NCBI GenBank assembly: GCA_016193065.1 | Contig: JACPSX010000043.1 | Coordinates: 3,600 to 16,908 of the forward strand | Direction of reading: 5' to 3' | Length of the DNA: 13,309 nucleotides | From: Candidatus Tectimicrobiota bacterium | Lineage (GTDB): Bacteria; JACPSX01 | Part shown: piece by piece, positions 2,616-13,309 of the stretch | Position numbering within the stretch: position 1 is the stretch's first letter | Layout: each line of letters opens with the position of its first letter | Notes under the pieces: generated by a model | Databases searched by the model: none | Seen by the model: only the letters and a program-made list of their open reading frames with translations | What the model was told of the DNA's origin: nothing | Made by a program: the position numbers and the translations under genes

Positions 2616-3080
2616 CTACTTTTCGGCAATGAGAAAGCCCTTGCGCTCCTCAGCGGTCAGCTCGGCTTTCCTTTTCAAAGTCCAGTTCCCCACCCAGGCC
2701 TTGAAAGTCTGGAGATTCTTCTTCCTTTCCTCGTCGCCAGCTCCGAGAAACTGATGCATGTTCCCAGGCTTGCCGTCCTTCGTGCTCTTCCCGTCATCGA
2801 GCCGTCTCATGATGGCCCCGGCGTCGCCTCCGTTGACAAAATCCACCAGGAGCTTGTAGCTATCCATCCGGGGGCCCTTCATCTCCTTGGTGTATTTTTC
2901 CTTGTTTTTGTCAAATTCCTCAATGAGAGGGGCCGCCGCGCCGTGGCATGCGATGCATTTGGCCTTCCACAAGGGCTCAATGTCCTTTGCATAGGTGGCC
3001 TTCTGGGCGAATCCTGTCGCCGGGAGAAGAGCAAGGCTTACGAAGATCGTCCATGCTACGGCTGAACTGCGGCTTTTCAT
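2616..3080 (-). CDS. Secreted monohaem cytochrome c
   Basis: A 154-residue protein. Residues 1-25 form a signal peptide with hydrophobic core (TIFVSLALLPATG) and likely cleavage after GFA. One haem site, C42-I-A-C-H46, follows the typical DIEPLWKAKC lead-in. A Met near residue 108 (PGNMHQF) is the likely sixth ligand, as in class I cytochromes c. The C-terminal part is rich in Lys and Glu. It should act as a soluble periplasmic electron carrier; its partners are unknown. The start is supported by AGGAGGG (complement of 3085-3091), 4 bases before the ATG. It is the only - strand gene here, convergent with the NtrC-type regulator and divergent from the NarX-like kinase. Upstream on its own strand lie a sigma-54 promoter and a terminator-like hairpin, so it may be induced by the adjacent haem-kinase/NtrC pair. 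Confidence 0.9.
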   Translation of the reverse strand: MKSRSSAVAWTIFVSLALLPATGFAQKATYAKDIEPLWKAKCIACHGAAAPLIEEFDKNKEKYTKEMKGPRMDSYKLLVDFVNGGDAGAIMRRLDDGKSTKDGKPGNMHQFLGAGDEERKKNLQTFKAWVGNWTLKRKAELTAEERKGFLIAEK

Positions 3081-3140
3081 AGGACCCTCCTCTGTGTTTG
3101 AGAAGACCCAACCCCTGGTGCAGGAGACCCCGCCTCCCCT

Positions 3141-3168
3141 GAAAAAACAGGCCGTAGGGCTCAGGCCT
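3141..3168 (-). terminator. Terminator-like hairpin in the cytochrome leader (possible attenuator)
   Basis: Read on the - strand, AGGCC (3168-3164) pairs with GGCCT (3153-3149) around a 10-base loop, then G and six Ts (3147-3142). The stem is only 5 base pairs but all-GC except one. It lies about 35-60 bases after the predicted sigma-54 start and before the cytochrome ATG, so it would act on that gene's own leader. No other - strand gene upstream needs a terminator here. The short stem keeps confidence low. Confidence 0.35.
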
Positions 3169-3215
3169 CAACGATCAAAAATGCCTCTTTGGTCAATTTA
3201 CTCTCAGGGAGGAAG

Positions 3216-3229
3216 GCAATCAATGTGCC
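3216..3229 (-). promoter_or_regulatory. Sigma-54 (-24/-12) promoter for the cytochrome gene
   Basis: The - strand reads GGCAC (3229-3225), five bases ATTGA, then TTGC (3219-3216). The consensus is TGGCAC-N5-TTGCW; all nine core bases match and only the flanking -24 T (here A) and final W (here C) differ. Transcription would begin near 3204 and give a leader of about 125 bases before the ATG at 3080. The neighbouring NtrC-type regulator is the obvious candidate activator. The match is direct; activity and activator are inferred. Confidence 0.7.
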
Positions 3230-3234
3230 TTTCG
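3222..3234. repeat. 13-base motif, copy 1
   Basis: AATGTGCCTTTCG occurs here and again, identically, at 6091-6103 upstream of the dihaem cytochrome gene. This copy overlaps the -24 box of the sigma-54 promoter. It may be a shared regulator site or a chance match between two intergenic regions. Confidence 0.35.
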
Positions 3235-3294
3235 GCCTATTCCTGCGGGGAAAAAGAGGGGATGAAGGTAGTCCTTTGGGCCACCGTCAGAGTG

Positions 3295-3307
3295 TGGTTC
3301 CCAACCA
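3295..3307. promoter_or_regulatory. Inverted repeat, candidate upstream activator site
   Basis: TGGTTCCCAACCA is a perfect 5-base inverted repeat with a 3-base centre. Its midpoint lies about 97 bases upstream of the predicted sigma-54 start near 3204, a distance typical of enhancer sites for NtrC-family activators. Only one copy is seen, whereas such activators often use two, so this is tentative. It could instead serve the rightward kinase promoter. Confidence 0.25.
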
Positions 3308-3357
3308 TGGGGACTTCTCCTTGCCCCAGAGGATACCGAGGTCTGCTGGATTGGAAG

Positions 3358-3386
3358 TTGATTTCACATGTTTCCGGTGTTATAGT
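3358..3386 (+). promoter_or_regulatory. Sigma-70-like promoter for the NarX-like kinase operon
   Basis: TTGATT (3358-3363) and TATAGT (3381-3386) are 17 bases apart, matching 4/6 and 5/6 of the -35 and -10 consensus. Transcription would start near 3393. That fits translation from ATG 3439 and excludes the far-upstream in-frame ATG at 2995. Confidence 0.6.
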
Positions 3387-3438
3387 TCAACCAAATCCCA
3401 GCCTTACAATGTCTGGATTAGAGGTGGAAACCCCTGTA

Positions 3439-5367
3439 ATGGCTTGGTTACCACGGGCGGATCACAACCAGAAGAACCCTTTTTCTGGACGCATCAGCGC
3501 CAAGCTCTCACTTTGCTTCTCAGTTTTGCTGCTCCTCTTTCTCGCCGTGGGAGCAATATCCCTCCTGTTGGCCCGATCCATCTCCGAAATCCCCTCCGAG
3601 GTGGCATCGGAAACCCGGCACATTGAGGTGACGGAAGACATCCACTCGACGATTCAGCGCCTCATCCATGGGATCGATCGCGTTGCCAGCAGCTCCCCGG
3701 ACGGGATTGACTCCATTAAGACCCTGGAGAAAAGGTTATTGGATGCGCTGGAGGGCTTCTACCTGGAGCACATAAGTGAAAAAGAACCTTTCCCTGAAAA
3801 GCACCAGGAAATCAACCTCATCGAGAGGCTCCGCAGCGAAACGGCAGCCCTCAGCGCCACCAGGGAGAGGATCCTGGCAGCCATCGAAGATGGGGAGGAA
3901 CCCGATCCTACAGATCTCGCCGCACTCGACGGGATCAGCAACAACGCCCCTTCCCTTACTCAACAGTTGAACAGTGTCCACTGGAGCAAGGTTCGACGCC
4001 TCAATGAACGCAATCGTTGGACCATGTCCCTCCTGGTCAAGGTTTATCTTGCCTGCTTTTTAATTGGTACGGCTCTCGTGGGTGTAAGCAGTGCGATCTT
4101 GTTCCGGAAGATTTCTTCCCCCCTGCGCCGGCTGGCTGCGGCTACCATATCCGTTTCTCAGGGAGACCTCAGCAAGCGCATGGACTTAGAATCCAATGAC
4201 GAGATCGGGCAGCTCTCTCAATCCTTCAACACGATGGCCGCGACCCTTGAAGAACACGAGCGGGAACTCAACGGGCTTAACGCCATGCTGGAACGGAAGG
4301 TAAAGGAAACCCAGGCTCTCTACCGAATCGGGACCGAGATCTCAAGCTCCCTGGAACTCAATCAAATCCTTCACTCCGTGGTCGAAAAAGCAAAGGAGCT
4401 ACTGCAAGCCGACTGTGCCGCTCTTTGTATGTTCGACGATGGCATTCGCGAAGCCGGCCTGAAGGTCACGAGTGGACCGGCCTTGGCCTTTGTTTGCAAA
4501 ACGATCTCAACAGAGCCAGGGCCGGCGGAAGACCAAAGCACCTGCCTTTCCAGCGAAACGTGCGTGCCAGGCAACGCTCCGGAATCAAAATTAACCTGTA
4601 AATTCTTTAACTCCACTTACGTGCGCTCTCATCTGGCCGCTCCGCTCAAGAAAAGGGATAAAACGCTCGGCGCATTGTGCGTGGGGCGCTGCGAGAACCG
4701 GGAGTACCGGGAAGTTCGAAATCTTGCCGCGGTCGAGGAGCGAGAGCGCATCGCCCGCGAAATGCACGATGGGTTGGCCCAAGCCTTGGGACTCATCTAC
4801 CTCCGCATTGATCGGTTGCAAGAGCTCGGCACCGGGGCAGCCCCTAGACTCGAACACGAGTTGGAAGGAGTGAAGAAAATCGCCGAGAATGCTTACGACG
4901 AAGTCCGACAATCGATCTTCGGCTTGAGGACTCAAGTTTCCCGGGGCCGCAAGCTTCTCCCGGTTCTCACCGAGTACCTTCATGAGTTCAGCACCCAGAC
5001 CAACATCAATGTGAGCCTCGTGGCAGATGATGACCGGGCAGTTCAATTTTCCCCTGCGGTGGAAGTTCAACTGATCCGAATTATCCAGGAGGCTCTCACC
5101 AACGTCCGGAAACACGCCATGGCCACCAGAGCGGTCGTGAATTTTTGCCGCAACGGGGACCGCGCCCGGGTCACCGTGGAGGACAACGGCAGAGGCTTCA
5201 AGATGAGCGAGGTCTCCTCTAACGGTGGAAATCATTTCGGCCTTCATACCATGCGGGAGCGGGCCCAATCCATCGGGGGGTCCTTGGAGGTCAAGTCTTC
5301 TCACGAGCGGGGAACGATGATAACCGTCGAGTTCCCCATTCCATCTATTGAGGAATACCAGGGATGA
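3439..5367 (+). CDS. NarX-like sensor histidine kinase (HAMP, Cys-rich GAF, HisKA_3)
   Basis: With ATG 3439 the protein has 642 residues. Membrane helices at about 23-45 and 196-216 bound a helical extracytoplasmic sensor of about 150 residues. HAMP (about 217-270) carries DEIGQLSQSFNTM. A GAF-like domain (about 285-420) holds eight cysteines (326, 330, 353, 369, 375, 387, 414, 418). HisKA_3 reads ERERIAREMHDGLAQ with phospho-acceptor H443. The HATPase has an N-box (IIQEALTNVRKHA) and G-boxes (VEDNGRGF, FGLHTMRERA). This is the NarX/DegS/LiaS kinase class, which phosphorylates NarL-type regulators; one follows with an ATGA overlap. The start was chosen because GAGGTGG (3421-3427) lies 11 bases upstream and the promoter at 3358-3386 sits before it; ATG 3409 is an alternative. 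The last GAF helix and the linker to HisKA_3 look shortened. A paralogue begins at 12120. Confidence 0.93.
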   Translation: MAWLPRADHNQKNPFSGRISAKLSLCFSVLLLLFLAVGAISLLLARSISEIPSEVASETRHIEVTEDIHSTIQRLIHGIDRVASSSPDGIDSIKTLEKRLLDALEGFYLEHISEKEPFPEKHQEINLIERLRSETAALSATRERILAAIEDGEEPDPTDLAALDGISNNAPSLTQQLNSVHWSKVRRLNERNRWTMSLLVKVYLACFLIGTALVGVSSAILFRKISSPLRRLAAATISVSQGDLSKRMDLESNDEIGQLSQSFNTMAATLEEHERELNGLNAMLERKVKETQALYRIGTEISSSLELNQILHSVVEKAKELLQADCAALCMFDDGIREAGLKVTSGPALAFVCKTISTEPGPAEDQSTCLSSETCVPGNAPESKLTCKFFNSTYVRSHLAAPLKKRDKTLGALCVGRCENREYREVRNLAAVEERERIAREMHDGLAQALGLIYLRIDRLQELGTGAAPRLEHELEGVKKIAENAYDEVRQSIFGLRTQVSRGRKLLPVLTEYLHEFSTQTNINVSLVADDDRAVQFSPAVEVQLIRIIQEALTNVRKHAMATRAVVNFCRNGDRARVTVEDNGRGFKMSEVSSNGGNHFGLHTMRERAQSIGGSLEVKSSHERGTMITVEFPIPSIEEYQG

Positions 5368-6038
5368 AGCCCATCCGGGTTCTGGTGGTTGACGATCACC
5401 CTCTGTTTCGGCAAGGGGTCGCGAGCTTATTGCGCGAGCAGACCGATATGGAGATCGTCGGGGAAGCGGAAGACGGGGCACAGGCGTTGAATCGGATCCA
5501 AGCACTTCTACCCGACGTGATCCTGATGGATATCCAGATGCCGATCGTCGACGGAATCGAGGCCACCCGGAAGATCAAGGAGATCTTGCCCAACTCAAAG
5601 GTGATTATCCTCACGGTCGCGGAGGAGGAACACAGCCTGTTCGAAGCAATTAAAAGCGGCGCCGACGGATACCTGTTAAAAAAGATCGGCTCCCAGGCGC
5701 TGTTGCAAGCGATCCGGGGGGTTTTCCACGGGGAAGCCTCTATCTCCAGCTCCATGGCAGCCAAGATCCTGAAGGAATTCTCCGAGCAGTCACGGCGCGG
5801 CAAATCCAAAGAAGAAACCCCCGATGAATTGAGCCCGCGAGAGACGGAAGTTCTCGACCTGGTAACCCAGGGACAGACCAACAAAGAAATCGCCGCTGCG
5901 CTCGCAATCAGCGAGGGGACCGTGAAAAATCACATGCGCAACATCATGGACAAGTTACACTTGCGCAACCGGGCCCAGGCCGCAGTCTACGCGCTGCGCC
6001 AGGGTCTGGTCTCCAAAAAGCCCCCCAGCCTCGACTAA
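5364..6038 (+). CDS. NarL/FixJ-family response regulator
   Basis: A 224-residue two-domain regulator. The receiver (1-120) has D10-D11, phospho-acceptor D56 (VILMDIQMP), T84 and K106 (YLLKKIG). The C-terminal LuxR-type helix-turn-helix (about 152-215) reads LSPRETEVLDLVTQG then NKEIAAALAISEGTVKNH. All phosphorylation residues are present, so it should be a functional partner of the NarX-like kinase whose stop codon overlaps its ATG (ATGA, 5364-5367). The Rieske/cytochrome b operon starts 199 bases downstream in the same direction and is the most likely target, by position only. The partially sequenced kinase at 12120 could also act on it. Confidence 0.95.
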   Translation: MKPIRVLVVDDHPLFRQGVASLLREQTDMEIVGEAEDGAQALNRIQALLPDVILMDIQMPIVDGIEATRKIKEILPNSKVIILTVAEEEHSLFEAIKSGADGYLLKKIGSQALLQAIRGVFHGEASISSSMAAKILKEFSEQSRRGKSKEETPDELSPRETEVLDLVTQGQTNKEIAAALAISEGTVKNHMRNIMDKLHLRNRAQAAVYALRQGLVSKKPPSLD

Positions 6039-6237: not shown

Positions 6238-7086
6238 ATGTGGAGAACGCTGGGCACTACTCTGGTTACCCTCTGGCTGATTTCCTTATTGCTCCCCCCG
6301 GAGACTGAAGCCCGGGCAGCTTCCTCCGACCCGGTAGCCCGGGGGAAATATATCTTTGCCGCCGCCGGAGGGTGCGCCTGTCATACCTCGCCCGCTTCTG
6401 AGGGAAAGCCGAACGCCGGGGGCAAGAAAATCACGGGGCCTTTCGGAACCGTCTACGCCTCCAATATCACTCCGGACATTGAGACAGGGATTGGCCGGTG
6501 GAGCCAGGAGGAAATCATCAATGCAATACGGCGGGGCGTGAGGCCAACGGGAGAAAAAATGTATCCGGTGATGCCTTATCAGTACTACAGTTTCATGGCC
6601 ATGGAGGATCTCAAGGCTCTCGTTGCCTACCTGATGACCTTCCCGCCAATCCGAAACCGGGTTCCAACGTCTCAACTCCGAGTTCAAGTCCCGAACCTTG
6701 CGGTCCCGGATCCCCCCCAGAAAGCGCCACGCTCAGGGATTGAGCGGGGTCGCTATCTAGTGGATGCCATCTCAGCCTGTGGAGATTGTCACACGGGAAA
6801 AACCCCCCGCCATCCCTATCTTGCCGGTACCCTCTCGGGTCCTGAAGACACCCCCGTCCCCAATATTACTCCCGACCCCAGCACGGGGATCAGCCGGTGG
6901 ACAAAGGCCCAGGTCGTCAAATACCTACGCACGGGCGAACGGCCGGATGGCCGCAGGGCCAATCGGATCATGATGGAAGTGATCCAGGGAACGTTGGTGG
7001 GTTACAAAGACATGACGAGGCAGGACTTGGAGGCTACCGCGGATTACTTACGATCTGTATACCCGGTCCGTTTTGCCCCCCAATAG
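6238..7086 (+). CDS. Dihaem cytochrome c, one site with CXCH
   Basis: A 282-residue protein with an N-terminal signal or anchor helix (about 4-20; possible cleavage after EARA). Two class I cytochrome c repeats follow, each with haem site, then NITPDxxTGIxRW, then a Met-containing region (VMPYQYYSFMAME; RIMMEVIQG). The second site is canonical, C181-G-D-C-H185. The first reads C46-A-C48-H49, with one residue between the cysteines. The repeat pattern resembles dihaem cytochromes related to membrane alcohol or sugar dehydrogenase cytochrome subunits, but no dehydrogenase is encoded here. The ATG follows AAGGAGG at 7 bases. It is the first gene of the respiratory operon, 18 bases before the flavoprotein. 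The likely role is periplasmic electron acceptor or donor for the Rieske/b complex, by inference from position. Confidence 0.9.
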   Translation: MWRTLGTTLVTLWLISLLLPPETEARAASSDPVARGKYIFAAAGGCACHTSPASEGKPNAGGKKITGPFGTVYASNITPDIETGIGRWSQEEIINAIRRGVRPTGEKMYPVMPYQYYSFMAMEDLKALVAYLMTFPPIRNRVPTSQLRVQVPNLAVPDPPQKAPRSGIERGRYLVDAISACGDCHTGKTPRHPYLAGTLSGPEDTPVPNITPDPSTGISRWTKAQVVKYLRTGERPDGRRANRIMMEVIQGTLVGYKDMTRQDLEATADYLRSVYPVRFAPQ

Positions 7087-7104
7087 GAGAAAAGAGAGGA
7101 ATTC

Positions 7105-9033
7105 GTGCCGGAAAAGGAGACAATCGCCAAACGGTTTCGGGCAAAGATTCGCGACCTGCGCTGGTTCAGGGAAAACATCCCATGCCTGGCAGCGTGCCCT
7201 GTGAAAACCGACGCGGGCAGGTACGTGCAGTTGATCGCCGAGGGTCGCTATGAGGATTCCTACCGGGTCGCCCGGGCGCCGAACCCGATTGCCTCCGTGT
7301 GCGGGCGCACCTGCGGGGCACCTTGCGAAGATGCCTGCCGGAGAGGGAAAATCGATGAACCCGTGGCCATCCGGCCACTCAAACGCTTTGTCACCGAGCG
7401 CTACGGACCTGAATCTCTGTACCCGCCCCCTTTTGAAGAGTTGTTCCCGCCGGAGGCGGATCTCGGCAGCGAAGTCGATTGGGGCGCTAGATCCCTCATG
7501 AAAAGAGGCGGCCCGGGTGCCTCTTCCCAAAAGGTTGCGGTGGTCGGGGCTGGGCCCGCGAGCCTGGCCTGTGCCCACGACCTGGCCCTCATGGGATACC
7601 AGGTGACAGTCTTCGAAGCCATGGACAAACCGGGGGGGATGATGCGCTATGGGATACCCGAGTACCGCCTCCCCCGGGAGATCATTGATCGCGAAGTTGG
7701 AGTCTTGGAATCCCTCGGCGTTGAGTTTCGCTACCGCACCCCCCTCACGGAGTCTTTTGGCATCGCAGACCTGCGGCGTCTAGGCTACAAGGCGATCTTT
7801 CTCGGTGTCGGAGCGGGCCGCGGCCGGGATCTCAAGATTATTGGGAACGACCTGGACGGCACCATCAAAGCAATTGACTTCCTCCTTAACATCAACCGCG
7901 GTTATCGGGTCACGGTGGGCAGAAAAGTCGTAGTTGTCGGAGGAGGCTTGGTAGCCCTTGATGCAGCCCGAACGGCCATCCGAGCCGCGGCAGGCAAAGT
8001 GGCTGAAGAAGAAGTCGGAGGAACCGCTTTTCGAGTGGCGCTGGATGCGGCCAGAGAGGCGGTGAGACGAGGGGCACTGGAAGTCACCGTGGCCAGCCTT
8101 GAATCTCTCGACGAGATGCCGGCCATGAAAACCGTGCAGGGCCGGGAAGAGATGGAAATCTCCCAGGGAGAGGGGATTCACTTTCTGCCCTCCTGGGGTC
8201 CCAGGCGGGTGATTGGAAAATCCGGAAAGGTGAGTGCTCTTGAACTCGTGCGCTGCACCCGGGTCTTTGACGAAAACGGACGGTTCAACCCCAGATTCGA
8301 TGAAAATGAAACCATGATGATTGAGACGGAAACATTGATCCTGGCCATCGGCCAAGCCCCCGATCTTTCCTTTTTGCGACCCGAGGATGGGATCAAAGTC
8401 AGCCCCGCGGGGACCATCGAGGTCAATCCTGAAACCATGGAAACCTCATGTCCCGGCATCTTCGCGGGGGGAGACGGGTCCTTTCCGCCCACCCTGTTGA
8501 TCACGGTGGCGGCTCATGGGAAACGGGCAGCTCTTTCCATTGATGCCTGCTTGAAGAGTCAGCTTCCTGCCAAGCTCGAACTAAAAACTACTGTGGAAGA
8601 GATCCCCACGGCCAGCCACCGCATGGCCCCGCACTACGAAACGATCCCAAGATACATCCCCACGCTCCCCCTGGAGCGCAGGACGGGAATTGCCGAGGTC
8701 GAACAGTGCTATTCGGAAAGCCAGGCCCGCACTCAGGCACAGCGCTGCCTCTATTGCCATATACACCCCATCTACGATAGTGACAAATGCGTCCTGTGCG
8801 GGCGCTGCGCCGATATCTGCCCCGAATACTGCATTACGTTCGCCCCATTCACGGCGCTGGAACTGGATGCCGACGAGTACCGCAGGGCCCTGGAAGGATG
8901 TGGAAGCGGCCCAGGCGTAGAGCTGACCGCATTCCTCTACGACGAGACCAAATGCATCCGTTGCGGTCTGTGCGCGATCCGTTGCCCTACCGGTGCAATT
9001 ACTATGGAGCGATTTAGTTTTCAGGAGGCCTAA
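7105..9033 (+). CDS. GltD/NfnB-like FAD/NAD(P) oxidoreductase with ferredoxin domains
   Basis: A cytoplasmic protein of 642 residues from a GTG start (GAGAGGA 5 bases upstream). The N-terminal Fer4_20-type domain binds Fe-S through C27, C31, C66, C70, C74 and C78 ([14 protein letters not shown]). The FAD Rossmann fold has VVGAGPAS at 146-153. The NAD(P) Rossmann fold has [10 protein letters not shown] near 277-286. The usual YRR after the second strand, which holds the NADPH phosphate in GltD-type enzymes, is replaced by ASLES (E333), hinting at NADH; this is inference. A 28-residue insertion repeats the helix VALDAARxA (283 and 311). A C-terminal 2x[4Fe-4S] ferredoxin uses C562/565/568/572 and C617/620/623/627. 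It stops one base before the Rieske ATG, so it is probably a subunit feeding or draining the cytochrome b complex. Confidence 0.93.
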
Positions 9034-9034
9034 G

Positions 9035-9505
9035 ATGGTCACGATTGCGCGCCGCACAGTCCTGAAGGTGATCGGACAACTCTCCGTTTTTGGCGCCTTT
9101 TTGATCCAGATTGGAGGAGCCGTGAGGGCCTTTATCCCCAATGTCCTTTACGAGCCACCCAAGAAATTTAAAGTCGGCAAACCGGAAGACTACCCGGAGG
9201 GGGTTAATTTCGTCCCAGAGCATAGACTTTTCACTGTGCGCAGCGCCAACGAGTTTGGAATTATTTCTGCCGTTTGTACCCACCTGGGCTGCACGGTACG
9301 TTGGGAATCCAAGGTTCCGGAATTCGAATGTCCCTGTCACGGCAGCCACTTCAGGCCTGACGGGACGGTCATTTCCGGGCCCGCGCCCCGACCGCTCGCC
9401 TGGTTTGCCCTCTCCCTGTCTCCCGATGGATATCTCGTTGTAGATAGATCAGAGCAAGTGGCCAGTACCTACCGTTTTAGCCCACCGGCAAAGGAGAAAG
9501 CATGA
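9035..9505 (+). CDS. Rieske [2Fe-2S] protein of a cytochrome bc complex
   Basis: A 156-residue protein. An N-terminal RRTVLK segment, Tat-like, precedes the single membrane anchor (about 12-32). The cluster-binding loops are C81-T-H83-L-G-C86 and C99-P-C101-H102-G-S104-H105, complete for Rieske ligands and the loop disulfide, followed by the GPAPRPL loop. The position just after the second loop, usually Tyr in high-potential Rieske proteins, is Phe106, which suggests a lower potential suited to menaquinol; this is inference. The ATG at 9035 follows AGGAGG (9022-9027) at 7 bases and is preferred to an in-frame ATG at 8993, inside the flavoprotein gene. Its stop overlaps the cytochrome b start (ATGA). 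It passes electrons from quinol to periplasmic cytochrome c. Confidence 0.96.
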
Positions 9506-10803
9506 AAACCCGGCTGCTCTCTCTGTGGAGGACTCTGACCTGGAGCTGGACGCCCATCAGTGAGCGCGAGGCGGGAGAGGCAGTGGTACGAAATTTCTGG
9601 ATCCACTGGTTTCCTGCCAAGGTAGCTGACCAAAGTTTCAGTTGGAGCTATTCCCTGTGGCTCGGGACCATTTCTCTGGTCCTGTTCTTTATTCTGACCG
9701 TGACCGGTTTTCTTCTGATGTTTTTCTACGTGCCCTCCGTGGAAAGGGCCTATTGGAGCATCAAGGACCTGGATTTTTCCGTGAGTTTTGGCTGGCTTCT
9801 ACGCAATCAGCACCGCTGGGCCGCTCACCTCATGGTGGCCACCGTTTTCCTCCACATGGCCCGGGTCTTTTTTACCTGTGCCTATCGGGGGAGGCGGGCC
9901 CTGAACTGGCAGGTCGGGATTACTCTGCTGCTTTCAACACTCCTCCTGTCCTTCACGGGCTATCTTCTTCCCTGGGATCAACTTGCCCTGTGGGCCATCA
10001 CGGTCGGGACAAACATTGCCAAAGAAGCCCCCCTGGTTGGAGATTGGATTTACTTTCTCTTGCTTGGCGGCAACGTGATCGGCCAGGAAACGCTGATCCG
10101 CTTCTACGTCTTCCACGTTTTTATCATTCCGGGGTTCGTTCTGCTGGCAGTCGCCTATCACATGTGGCGGATTCGCAAAGACGGCGGGCTGGCTGCGCTG
10201 GACCGCCTGGAGAGTAGCGCTGAAATCAAAGAAAAGGCTCCCGTACCCACGAAGACCTACTCCCTCTTCGGGCTGGCCAAGGGGACCTCGGTCCAGGTGA
10301 AAGGAGTAGACAAAATTGGAGAAGAGAATAGCCTTTTTGCGACCCCCCATCTGCTCCGCCGGATCATGCTTGTCTTTCTTGTGACTTTCACGGCAACTCT
10401 TCTCCTGGCCATCTTTTTCAACGCGCCTCTCGAGGAAGCAGCCAACCCTTCCGTCACGCCAAATCCCGCCAAGGCCCCCTGGTACTTCCTCTGGCTGCAA
10501 GAGCTGGTGGCCGACACGACCTTACACCTGGGAAAATATACGATCAGCGGCGGGCTCATTGGGGGCATCCTGATTCCGGGGCTGTTGTTATTGCTGGCGG
10601 CACTTTGGCCGTTTCTTGACAGGAGCTCTCCGCAAAGTTTGGGAGTCTGGTTTCCTCCCGAGCGGCGGACCCAGAACTGGATCTTCGCTGTCATCGTCAT
10701 CGCAATCATTCTTTTGATGTACATCGGTGTGGCCATGCGCGGACCCAACTGGAAAATCTACTGGCCTTGGCAAAATTGGCCCCAACTCCCGACACTCCTC
10801 TAG
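9502..10803 (+). CDS. Cytochrome b, fused b6/subunit IV type
   Basis: A 433-residue membrane protein. Residues 50-225 align well with cytochrome b6: four helices, [22 protein letters not shown], and RFYVFH. Haem ligands are H104/H118 (13 residues between) and H205/H220 (14 between, the b6f spacing rather than the 13 of bc1). After a polar linker (about 226-285), three more helices match subunit IV, with [10 protein letters not shown] at the place of the quinol-site PEWY motif. The b6f haem cn attachment Cys is replaced by W53, so that covalent haem is not expected. It forms the quinol-oxidising, transmembrane core of the complex with the Rieske protein before it and the pentahaem cytochrome after it. 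Confidence 0.96.
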
Positions 10804-10839
10804 GTGTCCGGGAATGCACACTCACTAAGAGGAAACCCC

Positions 10840-12051
10840 ATGAAACCATTGGACCGCTTTGCGAACCGGGATTTTGTATGGCTTTTTGCCATATCGATTC
10901 TCTTCTTCGCGCTGGTGGCAGCCGCAGTGGGTAGGGAGTATTCCACAGACTGGCGCGAGATCCAGACAAAGTACCGGAAGATGCTGGCGGCAAAAAAAGG
11001 GGAAACTGCTGTCAAGAACTTCCAAATCGATGCAAAGCAACTTTGGATTCCAAGATTGGGACGGGTCGATCGCTGTGTCGCATGTCACCTCTCTTATGAG
11101 GAGACGGCCTCTGTCCCCTCCGACCTTCCCGAACCGTTCAAACCACATCCCGCACTTGCTTATTTGGAACCCCATCGGTTCCCCAATTTTGGCTGCACGA
11201 CCTGTCACGGAGGTCAAGGCTTCGCCACCCGAACCCGGGATGCTCACGGGACGGTGGAACACTGGGAGGACCCGCTGATTACCCGAGAGCTGGCTCAGCG
11301 CTACGGGCTTACCCGGCGGGAGTTGATGGAGGCCAAATGCAACTCCTGTCACCGGCAGGATCCGGAGACCCGAGGGATGGACCTCATCAACATGGCCAAA
11401 CGTCAGATCTCGCAGAGAGGCTGCACTGGTTGTCATGCCATGGATGGGAAGGGCGGAAATGCAGGCCCCGATTTAACCTATGCGGGCGACAAAAATCCGG
11501 AACTCTTGGATTTCTCCAACGTAGAAGGGGAAAAGACTGCATTGAATTGGCACGTGCAACACTTCAAGGACCCTCAAAAGGTCGTCCCCGGCAGCATCAT
11601 GCCCAATTTGGGGATCCCTGACCGGGAAGCAAAAGCTTTGGCTCTCCTGATGATGAGCTGGAGAAAAGAGAATTTCTCTCCGGAATACGTCTCCAGGCCT
11701 CGCCCCGCGGCGGCAAAAGTCATACCTGCTGCGGCACAAGCACCTTTTCCGCCTCTGAATCCTCAAGCTTCGGAAGCCGCGAAACGGGGACGCGAGACTT
11801 TCCAGAACAAGGGCTGTCGGACCTGTCACTCGGTGGGCGGAGGCCGCATCATCGGCCCCGACCTGCTCGGCGTCTCCCGAAAACGGAGCAAGGAGTGGCT
11901 CAGGGCGTGGTTGGGGGATCCCGCTGCCTTTATTCGCTCCCATCCCGAGCTTAAGAGCTGGCCCGATGAGTTCGGGGGAGTTGTCATGCCGAATCAGAAC
12001 CTTTCCTCGGAGGAAATTTCGGCCCTGGTGGAATTTCTGGGGACCTTGTGA
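10840..12051 (+). CDS. Membrane-anchored pentahaem cytochrome c
   Basis: A 403-residue protein with one N-terminal membrane helix (about 12-31, FVWLFAISILFFALVAAAVG) that probably stays as an anchor. Five CXXCH sites start at residues 79, 119, 167, 195 and 326. The first three lie in a His-rich module (PHPALAYLEPH, DAHGTVEHW) with no obvious Met ligand, suggesting bis-His haems. The last two are class I cytochrome c domains with likely ligands in SIMPNLG and VVMPNQN. ATG 10840 follows AAGAGGAA at 5 bases; the upstream GTG 10804 is less likely. It sits 36 bases after cytochrome b and takes the place of cytochrome c1 or f in this complex, receiving electrons from the Rieske cluster. No covalent link to cytochrome b is present. 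Confidence 0.92.
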   Translation: MKPLDRFANRDFVWLFAISILFFALVAAAVGREYSTDWREIQTKYRKMLAAKKGETAVKNFQIDAKQLWIPRLGRVDRCVACHLSYEETASVPSDLPEPFKPHPALAYLEPHRFPNFGCTTCHGGQGFATRTRDAHGTVEHWEDPLITRELAQRYGLTRRELMEAKCNSCHRQDPETRGMDLINMAKRQISQRGCTGCHAMDGKGGNAGPDLTYAGDKNPELLDFSNVEGEKTALNWHVQHFKDPQKVVPGSIMPNLGIPDREAKALALLMMSWRKENFSPEYVSRPRPAAAKVIPAAAQAPFPPLNPQASEAAKRGRETFQNKGCRTCHSVGGGRIIGPDLLGVSRKRSKEWLRAWLGDPAAFIRSHPELKSWPDEFGGVVMPNQNLSSEEISALVEFLGTL

Positions 12052-12119
12052 AGAGAAGCGGGAAAACAAGGCCTCGTTAAGAAATGCTCAGGTTAAGATC
12101 CCGGAGGTTTCGATGCATC

Positions 12120-13309
12120 GTGAGTGACCCCGCTTTCCCAGAAAAAATCAGCCACAAGATCCGCCTCTACCTGATCGTCACATTCTCGGCCGTGGCGTTG
12201 ACCGGAGCCGTCTCGATTATCAGCACCCGCAACATCTTTCTCAGTTCCAAGAAGATCAACAGTCTTAACCAGCACATCAAAATCATGGACCAGTTTCATA
12301 TCCTCTTCCATCACCTCATTGACGAGCTCCATCGTGCCATCATCCTCAAGACACTCGATCGGCAGGAGCATATTCGCGATCTGGAACAAGAGCTCAAGGA
12401 ACAGCTCGTCCGCTACCGCGCCGAACACCTGGGGGAAATTCCGTCCCCGGAACAGACGCTTGAGATGACCCTGGTCGAGGAAATCCAGAGATCTACCGCC
12501 CAGCTTCTCAGTCTTTCCGGAAGCATCCAAAAGCTCATTGCCAAGAGACAGAAGATACCCAATGAGCAATTTGGTCTTCTCGACGGCATTGCGCACACGA
12601 TCCCCCCGGTAAATCAACAACTCAACGAACTTCACCTAAAAGAGATCCGGGGACTGATCCAAGAGAATACCTCCAGGATGGATATGATTTTCTGGATCTA
12701 CCTGGGATTCCTCGCATTTGGAACCGTTGCGACAGTCCTGGGGATTCGGAAATTCTCGACAGCCATCATTCATCCCCTCCAACTCCTGACATCGGCCACA
12801 GTTGAGGTCGGATCCGGAGCCCAGGGCAAAAGAATCGACGTTGCTTCCAAGGACGAATTCGGTCAACTCTCCCATTTTTTCAATGAAATGCTCGAAACAC
12901 TTGAAAACCGTGAACGTGAACTCAGAGCGTCTCAAAGGGATCTCGCCCGGCACGTGAGGGAACTCGAGGCCTTGCACCGAATCAACGTAGAAATTTCAGG
13001 CCTGCTCGATCTAGACCAGGTCTTGAAGCTGGTCGTTGAAAAAGCGCGTGAGTTGATGGGGACCGATCTAGCGTCTCTATGTACCCCCGCCGCAGATGGA
13101 AACGGATTCACCCCTCAGACGGTCAGCAGCCCGGAAAGATTATCCGGACTCTTCGAGGCCAACAGACGCTGCACGTTTCAGGAGAGCTCTCATTCCGATC
13201 TTCCGGGTCCGGAATGCGCAATCCCTCTGGAGTATCGTAGAGCTTACCTATCCGCTCCCTTGAAGCGAGGGGATCATATCGCCGGTGTCCTGTGCGTGGG
13301 CTGCAAGTC
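12120..13309 (+). CDS. NarX-like sensor histidine kinase, 3'-truncated by the window
   Basis: The frame is open to the window end, giving 396 residues from GTG 12120 and no catalytic domain yet. Membrane helices at about 14-34 and 190-211 bound a helical sensor domain with a His-rich first helix (FHILFHHLIDELH). HAMP (about 212-265) carries KDEFGQLSHFFNEM. The start of a GAF domain (EISGLLDLDQVL, VVEKARELM) holds Cys 321, 351, 366, 392 and 395. Layout and wording closely match the kinase at 3439, so the two are paralogues and a HisKA_3/HATPase end is expected beyond 13309. GTG 12120 has GGAGG 12 bases upstream; ATG 12084 is an in-frame alternative with poor ribosome binding. It begins 68 bases after the pentahaem gene with no visible terminator between, so it may belong to that operon. 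Confidence 0.88.
   Translation, partial: MSDPAFPEKISHKIRLYLIVTFSAVALTGAVSIISTRNIFLSSKKINSLNQHIKIMDQFHILFHHLIDELHRAIILKTLDRQEHIRDLEQELKEQLVRYRAEHLGEIPSPEQTLEMTLVEEIQRSTAQLLSLSGSIQKLIAKRQKIPNEQFGLLDGIAHTIPPVNQQLNELHLKEIRGLIQENTSRMDMIFWIYLGFLAFGTVATVLGIRKFSTAIIHPLQLLTSATVEVGSGAQGKRIDVASKDEFGQLSHFFNEMLETLENRERELRASQRDLARHVRELEALHRINVEISGLLDLDQVLKLVVEKARELMGTDLASLCTPAADGNGFTPQTVSSPERLSGLFEANRRCTFQESSHSDLPGPECAIPLEYRRAYLSAPLKRGDHIAGVLCVGCK

Follow-up and report, generated by a model that had tools for sequence, protein, structure and literature searches.

A conserved Rieske/cytochrome b operon with a predicted NAD(H)-type flavoprotein in a Candidatus Tectimicrobiota genome

A function for the Rieske/cytochrome b complexes of the anaerobic ammonium-oxidizing (anammox) bacterium Kuenenia stuttgartiensis was reportedly proposed by Kartal et al. 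in 2013. These complexes, Kuste4569-4574 and Kustd1480-1485, contain an oxidoreductase for nicotinamide adenine dinucleotide (phosphate), NAD(P), and are proposed to bifurcate the electrons of menaquinol to NAD(P)+ and to a high-potential acceptor; AlphaFold3 models place four iron-sulfur (Fe-S) clusters on the way from the b haems to flavin adenine dinucleotide (FAD) (PMC12954380). Here we analyse a stretch of 13,309 nucleotides (the window; contig JACPSX010000043.1, positions 3,600 to 16,908) from Candidatus Tectimicrobiota bacterium, in which five adjacent open reading frames (ORFs) on the + strand, 6238-12051, encode a c-type cytochrome, a flavoprotein, a Rieske protein, cytochrome b and a pentahaem cytochrome c. 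A flavoprotein gene inside a Rieske/b/multihaem c cluster is the defining trait of complexes of the anammox kind, and the window has it. In the open-access literature (subscription papers were not covered) we found no description of such complexes outside anammox bacteria; as far as we found, they have been published only for that group, and the distribution described below is far broader.

The conserved gene module

The five genes start at 6238 (ATG), 7105 (GTG), 9035 (ATG), 9502 (ATG) and 10840 (ATG) and are spaced by 18, 1, -4 and 36 bases, the frame of the last one being already open from a GTG at 10804. Their positions and spacings, and by Pfam also their domains, are as originally predicted. 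The second ORF (7105..9033, +) encodes a cytoplasmic NfnB/GltD-like FAD/NAD flavoprotein of 642 residues, which begins with a [4Fe-4S] domain and ends with a ferredoxin domain (Pyr_redox_2 3.5e-26, Fer4_20 2.7e-15, and two Fer4, 7.2e-12). It is followed by a Rieske [2Fe-2S] protein with a twin-Arg N-terminus (9035..9505, +; Pfam Rieske 1.2e-10, CTHLGC/CPCHGSHF), by a cytochrome b in which a b6-type part is fused to a subunit-IV-type part (9502..10803, +; Cytochrome_B 1.9e-41, Cytochrom_B_C 8.2e-06), and by a membrane-anchored cytochrome c (10804..12051, +; Cytochrom_C 1.7e-22) with the five CXXCH expected of a pentahaem protein, which is the equivalent of cytochrome f/c1. The marks of the bc1/b6f superfamily, namely the Rieske ligand motifs, four haem b His, a Cytochrom_B_C domain and a c-type haem subunit, are all present.

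A scan of named genomes returned nine relatives of the flavoprotein at 58-62% identity, from Candidatus Binatus soli and from metagenome-assembled genomes (MAGs) labelled Proteobacteria or Deltaproteobacteria, and in all nine the flavoprotein gene is followed by genes for a Rieske protein, a fused cytochrome b and a multihaem cytochrome c. In a broad bacterial sample, 22 of 385 other genomes (about 6%) contained a flavoprotein match (E <= 1e-90). We then collected flavoprotein homologues of at least ~399 bits for which the surrounding DNA could be read, 39 loci from about 30 genera. Rieske is linked to the flavoprotein at 39/39 of them, cytochrome b at 38/39 and multihaem c at 37/39, the missing genes falling past contig ends. 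The multihaem cytochromes have 4-10 CXXCH where complete and occupy the same position as the pentahaem gene. Gene order varies little: Rieske stands ahead of the flavoprotein at two loci (L131, L136), and the b and IV parts are split at four (L125, L127, L128, L130). The association is also reciprocal, in that the nine kin genomes have no cytochrome b scoring above 300 bits without a linked flavoprotein, and 26 genomes without the flavoprotein have no cytochrome b above 274 bits. In a quick tree, computed with the NAD-site columns omitted and a flavoprotein of the same genome that is truncated by a contig end (L055) removed, the linked flavoproteins lie on one side of a branch from 22 unlinked GltD/Nfn-type homologues (Shimodaira-Hasegawa-like approximate likelihood ratio test, 99).

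Because the same order recurs in tens of genomes, flavoprotein, Rieske, cytochrome b and multihaem c are one conserved module and not a chance neighbourhood. The original prediction was to fall if homologous operons usually lacked the flavoprotein; the opposite was seen. A chance neighbourhood or assembly artefact might be suspected in a fragmented MAG (the window lies in contig C148 of an assembly of 2.9 Mb, 294 contigs and 86% completeness), and is refuted by the conserved gene order, which is found in named MAGs from other projects as well as in the tens of other genomes; the genome itself has a second set (on C210) and a third flavoprotein (on C226). We regard the probability of such an artefact as negligible.

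Of the five families for which a conserved order was to be sought, these four make up the core, and the first cytochrome is outside it: loci of the Binatota type carry a different, monohaem cytochrome c in its place. In the window this accessory protein is a periplasmic c-type cytochrome of 282 residues (6238..7086, +; Cytochrom_C 5.8e-10), and its closest PDB matches are the cytochrome subunits of glucose, fructose and alcohol dehydrogenases. It had been called dihaem, and two candidate haem sites are indeed present; only one, CGDCH at residue 181, is a CXXCH, and the other, CACH at residue 46, is a CXCH, with the first Cys one residue nearer than in CXXCH. This CXCH (GGCACH) is kept in the three closest relatives (L171-L173), and also in L180; since the closest relatives keep it, it is probably an atypical haem site. 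It may be a rare covalent site, or one with a single thioether or none. We found no paper that uses the term CXCH.

Cofactor sites of the flavoprotein

By sequence and fold, the flavoprotein is nearest to NfnABC, StnABC, NfnI and DPD (PDB 9bov, E 2e-41; 8oh5; 9n5u). It shares with NfnB/NfnL and NfnABC/StnABC the fold, the sequence, a GltD-type N-terminal Fe-S domain and the Arg at FAD N5: R188, near-invariant in the linked family, aligns with Arg187 of Thermotoga NfnB, which bonds FAD N5. It differs from NfnB/NfnL in its apparent partner, a membrane cytochrome b, and, unlike in the NfnAB transhydrogenase, no gene for an NfnA-type small subunit is found in the window operon.

Seventeen Cys are invariant in the linked flavoproteins, six N-terminal and eleven C-terminal, and would fit four Fe-S clusters, the number modelled in the anammox modules. 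By homology, C548 and C551, which share the context EAxRCLxC with the N-terminal CxxC of GltD, would complete one cluster together with C27 and C78, while C31, C70 and C74, with K93 nearby, would form the cluster next to FAD. Two further clusters would be carried by the C-terminal ferredoxin domain, the part of our flavoprotein model that has low confidence (predicted local distance difference test, pLDDT, about 28-70). The FAD-proximal cluster of the anammox modules has no fourth Cys and is approached by a buried Lys (PMC12954380); K93, invariant in the linked flavoproteins, may be the equivalent of this residue.

The nucleotide site sets the linked family apart from NfnB/NfnL, where the additional phosphate of NADP+ is held by a pair of Arg. 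A strand of the NAD(P) domain ends in YRR in each of the 22 unlinked homologues that were readable, and from its position there this motif would contain the two phosphate-binding Arg. At the same site 38 of the 39 linked flavoproteins have an acidic residue (E333 in the window), nearly always in the context (S/C)LE(S/T); the 39th, L140, is one of the most divergent members. Glu at that strand end is the usual mark of a preference for NAD(H). Given this replacement of YRR by (S/C)LE, we predict that the flavoprotein probably uses NAD(H) rather than NADP(H). The nucleotide originally proposed, NAD(P)H, is thus narrowed: the protein is of the NAD(P) type, and E333 in place of the Arg pair speaks against the NADP part.

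An insertion at residues 296-320 separates the helix of the NAD domain from the (S/C)LE strand and has a conserved DAAREA or DVAREA. It occurs in the window, in Binatota and in several other linked flavoproteins, is absent from the unlinked GltD homologues, and is possibly a docking element.

Cytochrome b and comparison with described complexes

The cytochrome b of the window is laid out as a b6-type part, a cytoplasmic linker and a subunit-IV-type part with three transmembrane (TM) helices. The haem b ligands H104, H118, H205 and H220, as well as His35, are invariant in 38/38 linked cytochromes b. The Cys that holds haem c_n in b6 (Cys35), which lies near the first TM helix and distinguishes b6f proper, aligns with W53 in the window and is absent from 38/38 linked cytochromes b (G, W, Y or others instead). 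Of 9 flavoprotein-less b6-type proteins, 8 have it; L059, which belongs to a complex of the window's own genome, does not. Those with the Cys group in a single clade (100/100). A single clade of linked-type cytochromes b was not rejected (approximately unbiased test, p 0.265), which does not establish monophyly. Given that the Cys-bearing proteins group together and that L059 is likewise without the residue, we do not claim that the loss of haem c_n evolved repeatedly along with the flavoprotein. At the quinol-oxidizing (Qo) site, the PEWY motif is replaced by KAPWYF...QE (residues 322-334), and the window shares the stretch A-P-W-Y unchanged with its nine nearest relatives.

These data bear on whether the flavoprotein is part of the complex at all. 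It could instead be a soluble enzyme, for example an NADH:ferredoxin oxidoreductase, whose gene shares a transcript with those of an ordinary quinol:cytochrome c complex performing a normal Q cycle; its relatives NfnB, GltD and DPD are soluble with other partners, and we saw no membrane anchor in it. We consider this improbable in view of the strict linkage to Rieske and cytochrome b at 39 loci in about 30 genera, the single dedicated branch of linked flavoproteins, the near-exclusive reciprocity with one type of cytochrome b, and the loss of haem c_n in only this type and one other protein (L059). Assembly of flavoprotein, Rieske, cytochrome b and cytochrome c into one complex is, judging from the sequences, very probable.

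The comparison with anammox complexes, drawn in the original prediction, proved to be the right one. As in Kuenenia, a Rieske protein, a b6-type b, a subunit-IV-type part, a multihaem c and an FAD/Fe-S/NAD(P) oxidoreductase are encoded in one cluster, the cluster without a fourth Cys is matched by a conserved Lys, and the genome encodes several Rieske/b complexes. The best PDB matches of the window Rieske are the Kuenenia Rieske proteins 9rk3 (Kustd1480) and 9rk4 (Kuste4569), at 2.9e-25 and 1.6e-23, for which +335 and +303 mV were measured (PMC12954380), and its HGSHF includes the Ser/Phe second-sphere pair of Kustd1480. The differences are equally clear. The b and IV parts are fused in the window, with three C-terminal TM helices, and are separate in anammox bacteria, with five; the window has no haem c_n Cys, whereas the anammox models have haem c_N with a Glu ligand; the window cytochrome is pentahaem rather than hexa- or octahaem; its operon has no gene for a subunit like hydroxylamine oxidoreductase, as Kuste4574 has; an NAD(H)-type site is predicted; and the gene context is not that of anammox.

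In a Rieske tree, Kustd1480 groups with octahaem complexes that have no flavoprotein (L158-L160), and Kuste4569 lies, with its position unresolved, among the flavoprotein-linked ones. Neither of the two anammox complexes is singled out by this tree as a specific relative of the window. By these placements, the history of one anammox complex may differ from that of the other, and the grouping of Kustd1480 suggests that anammox bacteria added the NAD(P) module separately or exchanged subunits. Octahaem Rieske/b6 complexes without a flavoprotein are known as the Nitrospina type (PMC3578206). They resemble the window in their menaquinol-type b6 core with a multihaem c; in contrast, the examples that we read (L158-L160, with similar b/IV/octahaem sets in L097-L099) have split b/IV, the haem c_n Cys and no flavoprotein within the 11-16 kb read. 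The Geobacter b-type cytochrome ExtP is the best NCBIfam model for the b6 half of the window protein, with a match below the curated cut-off (242 vs 290 bits), and ExtQ matches the subunit-IV half.

Electron flow, genome context and implications

We propose that the module encodes a membrane-bound, b6-like Rieske/cytochrome b oxidoreductase of menaquinol (menaquinone as the quinone is assumed from relatives), with an NAD+/NADH module on its cytoplasmic face. Quinol would be oxidized at the periplasmic Qo site. The Rieske cluster would hand one electron to the pentahaem cytochrome, from which it would probably reach the atypical first cytochrome. The two b haems would carry the other across the membrane, and a chain of about four Fe-S clusters would then lead it to FAD and NAD+, either in place of quinone reduction on the negative (n) side or in addition to it. 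The downhill, high-potential branch would pay for the uphill reduction of NAD+. NAD+ is the most likely destination of the second electron because an NAD module is present and haem c_n is absent. Hauser et al. regarded anammox haem c_N as a centre whose potential lies ~250 mV above what NAD(P)+ reduction would allow and which favours the reduction of quinone (PMC12954380); lack of haem c_n removes such a centre. From the sequences, the most likely reading is a quinol:cytochrome c/NAD+ complex that bifurcates electrons at Qo, and we hold it with middling confidence. That electrons move towards NADH, provided that the complex assembles, appears somewhat more secure.

Several points weigh against this proposal. 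With menaquinone at -70 mV and Rieske at ~+300 mV, about 370 mV would be available versus the 250 mV needed to reach NAD+, so that the margin is thin and leaves little for moving an electron toward the negative side; a terminal acceptor of higher potential would help. The need for NADH made by reverse flow is not obvious, as the genome encodes a complex I-type NuoD and several COX1-family haem-copper oxidases (best match 519 bits, plus three more), and a search of it for RuBisCO and CdhC gave no match for either. The loss of the haem c_n Cys may be a single historical event; its association with the flavoprotein rests on few events. In Kuste4571, an extra interface haem b is ligated by His43, with an Arg nearby (PMC12954380). 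The window has H35 as a candidate counterpart, conserved alongside a W222-R223-x-R225-K226 stretch in the 38-sequence alignment; we rejected His35 as a signature of such a haem or of coupling, since it is also found in flavoprotein-less b6-type proteins. Our structure model of cytochrome b, built from a 10-row alignment, was discarded (pLDDT 42).

The main rival is the same complex working in the opposite direction, in which the flavoprotein oxidizes NADH and delivers electrons to the b haem or the quinone site of the n-side, so that the enzyme would be an NADH + quinone/cytochrome c oxidoreductase with an NADH-fed Q cycle. The cofactor chain is reversible in principle, without haem c_n an n-side quinone pocket could be open, and NADH oxidation is plausible in a respiratory genome with these oxidases. 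However, about 250 mV would be lost if NADH reduced menaquinone without pumping, and a complex I-type NuoD is present; for anammox bacteria this direction was dismissed on the same ground (PMC12954380). We therefore think it unlikely. Returning to bifurcation towards NAD+, we consider it possible, though less likely than not, that a widespread class reaching far outside anammox has exchanged haem c_n and quinone reduction, the n-side half of the Q cycle, for a dedicated NAD+-reducing flavoprotein, giving a quinol-driven, bifurcating NAD+ reductase.

The genome contains at least three Rieske/b clusters. Besides the window operon there is the C210 set, which is flavoprotein-linked, has a subunit-IV-type part with five TM helices and a flavoprotein cut by the contig start, and the C173 set, with split b/IV, an octahaem c and no flavoprotein. 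The third flavoprotein copy, on C226 (L055/L200, about 17000-17832), shares 80% DNA identity with the C210 copy and is truncated where the contig ends; a further, incompletely assembled operon of the flavoprotein-linked type is probably present. A HAMP/GAF/HisKA_3 sensor kinase and a NarL-type response regulator (2995..6038, +; Pfam) precede the window operon, are 41% and 60% identical to the copies flanking the C210 operon, and are its probable regulators. A second HAMP/GAF sensor kinase (12084..13307, +; Pfam), cut by the window end, lies downstream and shows 31-33% identity to the other two kinases. NarX/NarL-like two-component pairs beside both operons point to regulated, possibly alternative, Rieske/b complexes. 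Just upstream of the first kinase, on the opposite strand (2616-3080, -), lies a gene for a monohaem cytochrome c of the PccH family (E 9.8e-46), which is known from Geobacter. Inspection by eye of C148 further upstream, outside the window (L057, 3-2512), showed the end of a molybdoenzyme-type operon, with genes for a tetrahaem cytochrome c, an NrfD-like membrane protein and a TorD-like chaperone; a short stretch of N immediately ahead of the window marks a scaffold gap. With NuoD and oxidases present, and RuBisCO and CdhC not found in the genome, the organism looks like a respiring one, and the reverse electron flow envisaged in the original prediction, taken as autotrophic, is not specifically supported.

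The operon is real and conserved, and it is a variant of a kind known from anammox bacteria, biochemically unproven there. Whether a bc-type complex sends quinol electrons uphill to NAD+ has so far been asked for anammox bacteria, a slow and experimentally difficult group; the presence of the module in about 6% of the sampled bacterial genomes makes the idea of a direct quinol-to-NADH route testable outside them. The NADH-type site and the absence of the haem c_n trap sharpen the hypothesis, and the value of the finding lies in the breadth of the distribution and in its specific predictions: NADH and not NADPH, no haem c_n, and co-purification of the subunits. If the proposal is true, many uncultured lineages would have a further route from menaquinol to NADH, and respiratory-chain models of MAGs that score such operons as ordinary complex III would be wrong.

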